Source: Litorivicinus sp. (GTDB taxonomy: Bacteria; Pseudomonadota; Gammaproteobacteria; Pseudomonadales; Litorivicinaceae). From it: a stretch of DNA of 64,000 nucleotides. Both the position numbers and the translations under genes were made by a program. A model generated the notes under the pieces. The model ran no database searches. It saw only the letters and a list, made by a program, of their open reading frames with translations, and had not been told where the DNA came from. Positions 44,824-55,596 of the stretch are shown piece by piece (within the stretch, counting starts at the first letter, position 1; each line of letters begins with the position of its first letter). The stretch lies in NCBI GenBank assembly GCA_018401755.1, contig JAGYKJ010000006.1, positions 474,184 through 538,183 of the forward strand, read 5' to 3'.

Positions 44824-44922
44824 ATGATCGGTAAAGTACTCAAAGAACTCACGACAGGGGATACAGGGTTTGCCCTGATGCTGGTGGTGATGTCCCTGAC
44901 GATTCTCGCGCTCGCGTTCTAA
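44824..44922 (+). CDS. 32-residue single-helix membrane protein
   Basis: Below the track cut-off. The ATG at 44824 has ACAGGAGGTT just upstream, one of the best ribosome sites in the window. The product starts MIGKVLKELTTGDTGF and continues as one hydrophobic helix (ALMLVVMSLTILALAF). Its stop TAA directly abuts the GTG of the next membrane protein gene. It might be a small regulator or stabiliser of a membrane complex. No homologue is recognised. Confidence 0.65.
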   Translation: MIGKVLKELTTGDTGFALMLVVMSLTILALAF

Positions 44923-51044: not shown

Positions 51045-53210
51045 TTAGGCCTGCGCTTTGAGCTCGAGGCGGCGGCGATGCAAGACCGGTTCGGTGTAGC
51101 CGTTTGGCTGCTCGGTCCCTTGTAACACCAACTCAAGGGCGGCTTGATAGGCCACCGATTGGGCAAAATTGGGCGCCATTGGACGATAGGCAGGATCGTG
51201 CGCATTCTGCTGGTCGACCACTGCGGCCATGCGCTGCATGGTTTCCACGATCTGCGCAACCGTCACAATCCCGTGGCATAACCAGTTCGCCATGTGCTGG
51301 GAGCTGATGCGCAAGGTGGCGCGATCTTCCATGAGTCCAATGTTGTTGATGTCCGGCACTTTCGAGCAACCCACGCCCTGATCAATCCAGCGAACCACAT
51401 AGCCCAAGATCCCTTGCGCATTGTTGTCGAGCTCGGCCTGGATCTCGGCGGCTGACCAATTGGGGTCGGTGGCGACGGGAATGGTGAGAATGTCATCGAC
51501 GGTATTGCGACGTGTTCCTTTGAGTGCATTTTGGCGCGCAAAGACATCCACTTGATGGTAGTGCAGGGCGTGCAAGGTGGCGGCTGTTGGGGAGGGGACC
51601 CAAGCGGTATTCGCCCCTGACATGGGGTGTGCGATCTTTTGCTCGAGCATTGCCGCCATTAAGTCCGGCATGGCCCACATGCCTTTGCCAATTTGTGCAT
51701 GGCCTTGCAGACCGCACTCCAGTCCCACGTCGACGTTCCAGTTCTCATAGGCGGTGATCCAGGTGGATTGCTTCATCTCTCCTTTCCGAATCATGGGGCC
51801 TGCCTGCATGGAGGTGTGCATCTCATCACCGGTCCGGTCGAGGAATCCGGTGTTGATAAACACCACACGCTCTGTCGCCTGACCGATGCAGGATTTCAGG
51901 TTCACTGTGGTGCGGCGCTCTTCGTCCATGATGCCCATTTTGAGGGTGTTGCGTGGGAGGCCTAAGAGTTGTTCGATCTCGCCGAATAGGCGGTTGGCAA
52001 AGGCCACCTCATCCGGGCCGTGCATCTTCGGTTTGACGATATAGACACTGCCATGACGGCTGTTGGTATTGGTGCTGCGTTTCAAATCATGGATCGCCAT
52101 CAATGCAGTGAAGACACCATCGAGAATGCCTTCAGGAACTTCCTGTCCGTCGCCGTCCAAGATGGCTGGGTTGGTCATCAAGTGACCGACGTTGCGGACA
52201 AACATCAATGCGCGGCCTGGCAGCGTGATGCGCTCGCCATGGAGTCCTTGGTAGGTCCGATCTGGGTTGAGCGTGCGTGTAAAACGCTGATCACCCTTGG
52301 TGACAACTTCACTGAGAGTGCCTTTCATCAGGCCCAACCAATTTTGATAGACGAGGACCTTGTCTTCGGCATCCACGGCAGCCACAGAATCCTCACAGTC
52401 CATGATGGTGGTCAGTGCGGATTCCATGAGGATGTCTTCAATGCCTGCAGGATCTGCGGCACCAATCGCAGATGTGTGATTGATTTGCAGTTCAAAATGC
52501 AATCCGTGATGCTTGAATACGACGTGCGTGGGTGCATCGGCCGGTCCATTGAATCCGAGACATTGACTTGGATCACGCAGTTCCGTCGTGCCGGTGGCGG
52601 TGGTGACAACCAGTTTGTTTGAGGCGATCTGGTAGTGGGTCGCGTCTTGATGGCTGCCCTCTGCCAGTGGGATCGCTTGATCGAGAAAGGCTTTGGCGAA
52701 CGCAATCACCTTGGCGCCACGGATTGGATTGTAGACCGTCCCAGCCTCAGCACCCCCGTCCCCTGAAATCGCATCCGTCCCATAGAGTGCGTTATACAGA
52801 CTGCCCCAGCGCGCATTCGCAGCGTTGAGTGCGTAGCGCGCATTCATCACTGGAACAACCAGCTGCGGTCCTGCGGTCTGAGCGACTTCCGGATCCACCT
52901 GTTGGGTGGTGACCTGCACAACAGGGGGTTCCGGTACTAAGTATCCGATGTCTTGCAAAAATGCTTTGTAGGACGCCATGTCGAGCGGCTGGCCTCGCCG
53001 GGCCGCATGGTAGTCATCAATCTTGGCTTGTAACTGGTCGCGTGTGGCCAACAGTGCGCGGTTCACAGGGGCCAGTCGATGAATCAGGGCATCGAGTGCT
53101 TGCCAAAAGTGATCTGACTCGATGTCAGTGCCCGGAAGGGCGTCTGTTTCCACAAAATCATACAGAGATTGGGCGATCTGTAATCGGCCACGAGTCACGC
53201 GCGCTGTCAT
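51045..53210 (-). CDS. glcB: Malate synthase G
   Basis: A 721-residue enzyme of the normal GlcB length, condensing glyoxylate and acetyl-CoA to malate. The start is the ATG at 53210 with GGAGG upstream; the track adds 47 upstream codons that cross a terminator. Motifs include [47 protein letters not shown] and [16 protein letters not shown]. The gene is complete with no frameshift. It stands alone, without glcDEF, so it likely serves glyoxylate from the glyoxylate shunt or from glycolate made elsewhere. Confidence 0.97.
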
Positions 53211-53302
53211 TGGGAATCCTCCATTGTTGAGATGAAAATTACCACAAAATGAAATGAGTTTCCAAAAGTGAAAAGTGGGCGCGTGACATGGGTCGAGGTC
53301 CA

Positions 53303-53340
53303 ATAAAAAACCCCCTGTGTGCAACGCACGCAGGGGGTTA
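53303..53340 (-). terminator. Intrinsic terminator after the 50-residue ORF
   Basis: On the minus strand AACCCCCTG and CAGGGGGTT pair through a GTGC/GCAC inner stem around GTT and are followed by TTTTTT. This is a strong rho-independent terminator pointing left, 35 bases beyond the stop of the small ORF at 53375-53527. It isolates that ORF from glcB. Confidence 0.88.
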
Positions 53341-53374
53341 ACGCCGCGCACTCAGCGCGACTGGCTCGAACGCC

Positions 53375-53527
53375 TCAGTGCGGAAAGGTGCGCACGAAGT
53401 GCATCGCTTTCTGCATCCAGCGGTGCAGACCGCGATAGGGGGTGAGTCCGGCCTTATTCAGGCGAATCTCGTTACGTGCCACGGCATCGTGGCTTGAAAG
53501 CATGGCTTGACCCAATAGTGGAGACAT
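53375..53527 (-). CDS. 50-residue basic small protein, unknown
   Basis: Below the track cut-off. It has an excellent ribosome site (AGGAGGT, seven bases before the ATG) and its own downstream terminator, and a palindrome lies upstream, so it looks like a complete small transcription unit. The product begins MSPLLGQAMLSSHDAVARNE and ends HRWMQKAMHFVRTFPH. It is rich in His, Arg and Met and has no transmembrane segment. I do not recognise it. The regulatory setting suggests a real gene. Confidence 0.65.
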   Translation of the reverse strand: MSPLLGQAMLSSHDAVARNEIRLNKAGLTPYRGLHRWMQKAMHFVRTFPH

Positions 53528-53552
53528 CTGTGACCTCCTGTGTGTCAGTTCA

Positions 53553-53575
53553 GATTGCGCACAATGTACGCAATC
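53553..53575. promoter_or_regulatory. Inverted repeat upstream of the 50-residue ORF
   Basis: GATTGCG-CACAATGTA-CGCAATC, with perfect 7-bp arms, lies 26 bases before the start codon of the small ORF. It is a probable regulator site overlapping its promoter. The ATTGCG/CGCAAT half-sites also occur upstream of hexR with different spacing. Confidence 0.5.
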
Positions 53576-53854
53576 TATTTGGGAATTGCAAGCGATGCGC
53601 TCTGGTCATCGATCATGCTGTCGCGCTAAGTGGTTTTACGGACCTCGATTTTTCGGGGACGATGAGGGAGTGATCCGTGGGGTCGTCGTGATCGGGATCC
53701 CACGGATCCTGCACCGCCCCGCAACGGGGGCTAGCACGCCACGGTGTGGAGGTATGGACTTCCATAGTTCGTTTTTAACTATGTAATTTAAATATACGAT
53801 TGTTAATGAATATGATTCTGCGCGATGCTGGTCCTCGTCAAACAAGGAGGCGTT

Positions 53855-53974
53855 ATGCACCCGTTCAAACATGCTGTACCCCAGTGGTTTGCGCGACTCC
53901 CGAGTGGGGTCATGTGGCCACAAGCCAGCCTCCCGGTGTCCATACGTCATGTGATTCAGTGGCATCACCCTTGA
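53855..53974 (+). CDS. 39-residue small ORF, unknown
   Basis: Starts with ATG five bases after AAGGAGG, a consensus ribosome site, and encodes MHPFKHAVPQWFARLPSG followed by a Trp/His-rich tail ending IQWHHP. No family is recognised. It lies ~100 bases before dps on the same strand and could be a leader peptide or a real small protein. The AT-rich segment before it (TATGTAATTTAAATATACG) looks promoter-like. Confidence 0.4.
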   Translation: MHPFKHAVPQWFARLPSGVMWPQASLPVSIRHVIQWHHP

Positions 53975-54072
53975 CGGGGCTAACGGATCGCTGAAAGCAG
54001 ACCCTTGGACGCCTATACTCAGACCATTGCTGACCAGCCATGGAGGCATGGTCGTCATCAGGAGGACATCCA

Positions 54073-54556
54073 ATGCGTACATGGACAACCCATCAATATC
54101 GGCATTTCTGAAGCAGACCGTCAAACCATTGTGGACGGGTTATCACGGTTGCTGGCGGATAGCTATACCTTGTATTTGCAGACGCATAATTTCCACTGGA
54201 ACGTCACGGGACCGATGTTTAACACCCTCCATACCATGTTTATGACGCAATACACCGAGCAGTGGGGTGCGCTGGATTTGATCGCCGAACGGATCCGGGC
54301 ACTGGGATTTCCGGCACCAGGTACCTATGCCGAGTATGCCCGGCTCTCGAGCGTCAAGGAGGTCACCGGGGTACCGAAAGCAATGGAGATGGTGCGTATT
54401 CTGGTCGATGCCCAAGAGGCAACGGCGCGCACGGCCCGCTCGCTGTTCCCTGTGGTCGAGGCTGCCAACGATCAGCCCACAGCCGATTTGATCACTCAAC
54501 GGCTCGACGTCCATGAAAAGACGGCCTGGATGCTGCGCTCGTTGCTTGAGGAGTAA
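54073..54556 (+). CDS. dps: Dps-family ferritin-like DNA-protection protein, frameshift near its start
   Basis: A mini-ferritin of ~160 residues. The ferroxidase and interface motifs THNFHWNVTGP, MFMTQYTEQW and DLIAERIRALGFPAPG are intact. The ATG at 54073 has GGAGGA upstream, but its frame stops after twelve codons, while the conserved frame (INIGISEADRQ) has no good start. Deleting one C of the CCC run near 54091 joins them. Dps stores iron with peroxide and protects DNA under oxidative stress. Confidence 0.88.
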
Positions 54557-54629: not shown

Positions 54630-55596
54630 ATGTCCGGAAGTCCTTTACTAGATCCCAGTGTGCTGTTTTTTGTGCTCGGCGTATGTGCCGGCCTGATACG
54701 GTCGAACCTTGAAATCCCCGCCGCCATCGCCCGATTCTTATCGCTCTATTTGTTGATGGCCTTGGGTCTCAAGGGCGGCTTTGCACTCTCAGTCAGCGGC
54801 ATCGATGGCGCCATTTTGCGAGACCTGGGCTTGGCCGTGTTGCTTGCCATCTTGGTGCCCTTGGCGGGTTTTGCGCTCTTAAAGCGATTTGTGCCTCCCT
54901 TGGATGCGCTTGGCGATCGCAGCGACCTATGGATCTGTCTCTGCGGTGACCTTCATTACCGCCACACAATTCTTGGAGACAGCGTCCGTTGAGTACGGCG
55001 GGCATATGTCAGCTGCCATGGCGCTGATGGAATCGCCAGCCATCATCTTTGCAGTGTTGATGGCCAACGTGTATCGAAGTCGTGCCGGTCAAGCCAGTGC
55101 GGTCCCAGTCTCCGCGGTGATGCGTGAGTCCTTTACCGAAGGCGCACAGATTCTGTTACTGGGTAGCATGGTGATTGGGGTGCTGACCGGCAAGGCCGGC
55201 CAGGTCATCATGGACCCGTTTACAGGCACTATTTTTAAGGGAATGTTGGCATTTTTCCTGTTGGATATGGGCATTGCGACAGCGCAACGGCTGGCCGATT
55301 TGAAAGCAGTCCCGAAGCGTTTGGCGTTTTATGGGGTCATTGGTCCCTTGGTGCATGCGTCGATCGCGCTCGGCTTGTCTTGGCTGTTTGGATTAAGCGT
55401 CGGCAACGCGACCCTACTCATGGTGCTGGCAGCCAGTGCGTCTTACATCGCTGTCCCAGCCGTCCTGAAACACGCACTCCCTGAATCATCGCCCACGCTC
55501 TATCTCGGTTTGTCGCTGGGGTTGACCTTTCCGTTTAATATTCTGGTCGGGATTCCCTTGTATTACGGGATTGCTCGGGTGGTGCTGGGTAGTTAA
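54630..55596 (+). CDS. SbtA-like sodium-dependent bicarbonate transporter, frameshifted at ~54910
   Basis: A membrane protein of 321 residues after correction, with about ten helices. The first frame covers DPSVLFFVLGVCAGLIRSNL and LMALGLKGGFAL. The second covers AATYGSVSAVTFITATQFLE, MALMESPAIIFAVLMAN and ASASYIAVPAVLKHALPE, all typical of SbtA. One extra T near 54910 breaks the frame. In cyanobacteria SbtA imports bicarbonate; in heterotrophs it may feed anaplerotic carboxylation. No SbtB-type PII gene follows. Confidence 0.88.

Follow-up and report, generated by a model that had tools for sequence, protein, structure and literature searches.

A putative repressor-controlled gene for a 50-residue basic orphan protein upstream of glcB in Litorivicinus sp.

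Introduction

Does a compact set of expression signals in an intergenic region of Litorivicinus sp. mark a gene for a small protein, a small RNA, or an accident of sequence? The set lies upstream of glcB in the 64,000-nucleotide stretch of DNA that was analysed here (the window), and comprises an inverted repeat, a Shine-Dalgarno sequence (SD), a short open reading frame (ORF) and a terminator. A preliminary description had argued from this packaging for a genuine small protein of no recognised family. In this work, the anatomy of the unit, its expectation by chance, its coding signal, its relatives and its predicted product were analysed.

Results

Anatomy of the unit

Rereading of the sequence confirmed the coordinates of the preliminary description: the SD, ORF, terminator and palindrome were all in place, and the directed elements shared the minus-strand orientation (Table 1). 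On this strand the order was promoter, palindrome, SD, ATG, 50 codons, TGA, terminator and glcB. The charge and pI of the 50-residue product were computed to be about +4 and 11.5, respectively. The palindrome could be written as AGATTGCGTACA-T-TGTGCGCAATCT. It had been called a perfect inverted repeat, which was true of the outer arms but not of the longer ones, whose single mismatch corresponds to a G.U pair in RNA. The score of the predicted promoter was below the 9/12 threshold of the promoter scan. The terminator (–23.2 kcal/mol), which started 35 nt past the stop codon, was missed by a standard scan tool and was detected by a custom scan.

Table 1. Positions of the elements of the unit and of the neighbouring glcB in the window
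Feature	Position	Strand	Basis
Small ORF, 50 aa, MSPLLGQAMLSSHDAVARNEIRLNKAGLTPYRGLHRWMQKAMHFVRTFPH	53375–53527 (stop included)	–	Sequence and coding score
Shine-Dalgarno AGGAGGT, 5-nt spacer (CACAG) to ATG at 53527	53533–53539	–	Sequence
Palindrome AGATTGCGTACATTGTGCGCAATCT, proposed operator	53552–53576		8-bp outer arms perfect; 11/12 over 12-bp arms
Weak sigma70-like promoter (predicted), TTGCAA (53591–53586), 17-nt spacer, TACATT (53568–53563)	53563–53591	–	8/12 consensus matches
Intrinsic terminator, 14-bp stem with one C.A mismatch, 3-nt loop, tail TTTTTTA	53305–53339	–	Sequence, folding, custom scan
glcB, malate synthase G, neighbour of the unit	51045–53210	–	Pfam MS_TIM-barrel, 3e-67

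The glcB gene began 93 nt beyond the terminator, had its own upstream promoter region and lay outside the unit. A role of the unit as a leader or attenuator of glcB was judged unlikely, because the terminator precedes the gene by this distance and relatives without the unit keep a promoter-like element. Directly upstream of glcB, a AAAATGAAAATTGCTTCCATTTTTTGGAAG-like element was conserved in eight relatives, i.e. much of the genus, and a weaker copy was observed at 53230–53290 of the window. This element looks like a glcB promoter/operator.

Expectation by chance

The 865-nt intergenic stretch was simulated in 4000 Markov-generated copies. An ORF preceded by a 7-nt SD was present in 0.3% of them; 0.5% contained a terminator as well as an ORF with an SD of at least 5 nt, and a single copy (0.025%) united all of SD, ORF, terminator and palindrome. 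The combination of elements in the unit exceeds chance. Only one other case of a 7-nt SD before an intergenic ATG ORF was found in 464 kb of the genome. Intergenic ORFs with an SD of at least 6 nt were enriched, with 8 in 464 kb versus 2.2 ± 1.4 expected from simulated sequence; among the others of this group, a ParD-like (82 aa) and a UbiK/BMFP-like (88 aa) ORF appeared gene-like by eye. Palindromes of equal tightness (arms of 12 bp with no more than one mismatch, loop of up to 2 nt) occurred about once per 65 kb, so that one less than 50 nt from a start codon is unlikely, but alone not extraordinary.

A second small ORF of 39 aa, with AAGGAGG shortly before its ATG, was observed on the opposite strand of the same intergenic region (53855–53974, +), and a search of the genome gave no paralogue. 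Its codon score was –0.14, i.e. non-coding, which indicated that pairs of SD and ORF arise without a coding signal. Together with the confinement of the unit to one species among those searched, this would fit a unit without functional product that came together by chance, or that is decaying, in an accessory stretch between genes; a 1-in-4000 event is moreover expected about 0.1 times over the several hundred intergenic regions of the genome. Nevertheless, the joint simulated frequency was as low as 0.00025 per stretch and the codon-position signal described below is independent of it, and we regard such an origin as distinctly unlikely.

Coding signal and folding of the transcript

The codon log-odds score of the 50-codon ORF was 0.087 bit/codon, the highest among the six frames. 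This value corresponded to the 20th percentile among 49-codon windows from real genes, was exceeded by 2% of off-frame windows, and was reached by 8% of SD-less intergenic control ORFs. The GC contents at the three codon positions were 62/44/66%, as compared with 62/44/55% for the genes of the genome, and thus resembled those of real genes at positions 1 and 2. With a 7-nt SD, a spacing of 5 nt and codon usage in the range of the host, the translation signals were those of a protein-coding gene. The coding signal is modest, and it is supportive of a gene but not decisive. The SD could pair with codons 2–3 in a small hairpin (–8.6 kcal/mol), and shuffled sequences formed equally strong ones (z +0.4).

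Folding bears on another explanation, namely that the unit yields a regulatory small RNA of ∼250 nt, or one with a dual function, in which the ORF is incidental or secondary. The full transcript folded better than dinucleotide shuffles (z –5.4), as did the ORF stretch alone (z –2.2), the unit is equipped with a strong terminator and a putative promoter of its own, and conservation of the protein was not found in the genomes searched. The excess of folding, however, resided mainly in the palindrome and the terminator, whereas the part that starts at the SD and covers most of the ORF was near background (z –1.4). The best Rfam match scored 20.7 bits versus a gathering score of 49.5, which did not place the transcript among known small RNAs. 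A small RNA also has no need of a perfect, well-spaced 7-nt SD or of gene-like GC by codon position. This explanation was considered rather unlikely.

Relatives of the unit

The preliminary description had proposed a homology search with the 50-residue product. No homologue was found in 21 members of the genus, about 390 genomes of the order or about 370 genomes of the class; there were only chance-level matches, several of which contained internal stops or fell within unrelated long ORFs. Searches of Pfam, NCBIfam, PHROGs and PDB sequences were likewise empty, so its statement that no family is recognised holds. Scans with peptide seeds gave nothing in GTDB contigs, IMG/VR, phages or plasmids; the GTDB scan requires an exact 8-residue match and therefore reaches close relatives only. 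A match to the PFL_4669 ICE protein (TIGR03761; 12.3 bits, E 0.087, versus a curated cut-off of 110.7 bits) was taken as chance.

At the DNA level, the entire intergenic region had no match in 22 relatives, and neither the frame nor the hairpin was seen in the 21 genus members or the rest of the order. The unit was absent upstream of glcB from all relatives with readable upstream DNA. The GlcB protein itself was only 70–77% identical to those of genus relatives. Among 21 other genomes of the genus, the neighbouring dps turned up in a single one, implying that the region of the unit is accessory.

The gene sbtA, for a Na+-dependent bicarbonate transporter (Sbt_1, PF05982), was split into two overlapping plus-strand frames (54630–54992 and 54889–55596) that covered profile positions 1–79 and 88–307, reflecting either a frameshift mutation or an assembly indel. 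In the Dps/ferritin-like gene, AGGAGG and an ATG (54074) at 54060–54110 (+) were out of frame with the gene body; one relative reads MREMTVNIGISE in frame at this start, which suggested an indel at 54060–54110. From these two genes, assembly indels are possible nearby, and the 50-codon frame itself could be affected by them. Farther away, an ORF at 44824–44922 (+) with a perfect 7-nt SD encoded a hydrophobic product of 32 residues (MIGKVLKELTTGDTGFALMLVVMSLTILALAF) in strongly gene-like codons (0.36). This product is a small membrane protein, or else the ORF is the start of the following hydrophobic frame, cut off from it by a frameshift.

Palindrome and putative regulation

The –10 element of the predicted promoter sits in the centre of the palindrome, as is expected for a repressor operator. 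From this position, the palindrome is a putative operator, and the arrangement suggests repression by a dimer. The core ATTGCG-N9-CGCAAT occurred only once in the genome, and searches of 294 further genomes of the order and 24 of the family did not recover the fuller motif. Within the genome, sites with up to three mismatches were no commoner than those of a reversed control, and a regulon was rejected. A search of IMG/VR with the operator motif gave four matches, none beside a recognisable relative and at least two within long ORFs, which were uninformative. The lack of further sites in the genome suggests a local or dedicated repressor, for which the 50-residue protein itself is a candidate of low probability.

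Predicted structure of the product

The single-sequence AlphaFold2 model of the product showed two helices at residues 3–26 and 32–47, with a mean pLDDT of 76 and a pTM of 0.41. The second helix (RGLHRWMQKAMHFVRT) was basic and strongly amphipathic, with a hydrophobic moment of 0.76 (shuffle p 0.001). A PDB fold search with the model returned no match at E ≤ 0.001, the best E being 2. As modelled, the product is probably a two-helix protein whose C-terminal helix is basic and amphipathic. Such features make binding to another protein, to nucleic acid or to a membrane surface its most likely role, rather than that of an enzyme.

CopG (45 aa) and Arc (53 aa) of the ribbon-helix-helix (RHH) family are small autoregulated repressors. 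The unit resembles them in combining a tiny basic protein with a palindrome that covers the predicted promoter of its own gene, but its protein has no sequence or RHH profile match. The RHH fold consists of an N-terminal beta strand and two helices, whereas the model contains two helices and no N-terminal strand. Membership of the RHH family is thus not supported by the profile searches and the helices-only single-sequence model. In another reading, which we consider very unlikely, the protein would be a minimal repressor of a new type, basic and dimerising with two helices, and its target would be the palindrome at the promoter of its own gene. The palindrome is unique in the genome and, as for the protein, this species was the only one in which it was seen; if the reading is true, the unit would be a one-gene autoregulated module. 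DUF1127/YjiS proteins are also basic and helical with about 50 residues, like the product of the unit, for which a Pfam search up to E 10 gave no family.

Discussion

Taken together, the unit is probably a genuine monocistronic, lineage-restricted and repressor-controlled gene for a basic orphan protein. In the proposed mechanism, transcription would begin at the weak sigma70 promoter, the –10 of which lies within the 25-bp palindrome, and a dimeric repressor on the palindrome may block this promoter. When the repressor leaves, a transcript of ∼250 nt would be made and translated from the strong SD, and transcription would stop at the intrinsic terminator ahead of glcB. The analysis shows the anatomy of the unit and how improbable it is statistically, from which its expression, its repression and the role of its product are inferred. 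The genuine small protein claimed in the preliminary description is still the likeliest reading, in view of the rare SD, the gene-like GC content at codon positions 1 and 2 and a terminator placed to suit the ORF end, but neither the frame nor the hairpin had a homologue in the genomes searched. Besides the absent homologues, the modest coding score, the 8/12 promoter, the SD hairpin and possible nearby indels speak against a gene.

The SD and terminator of the unit seem stronger than usual for the class of orphan small genes. With its short intergenic ORF under annotation size limits and its unrecognised family, the unit, which is predicted here from sequence, resembles this class. Genes of the class, encoding small proteins in intergenic regions, have been detected by Ribo-seq, for example in E. 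coli O157:H7 Sakai (PMC5597208).

At present, the unit is one further orphan small ORF in a large known class, and a finding of an ordinary kind. It makes a clean candidate for a small protein confined to one species, of a sort that annotation based on size and homology would overlook. Were it expressed, it would offer a tractable example of a small gene that arose recently or was acquired horizontally and that carries its own switch.
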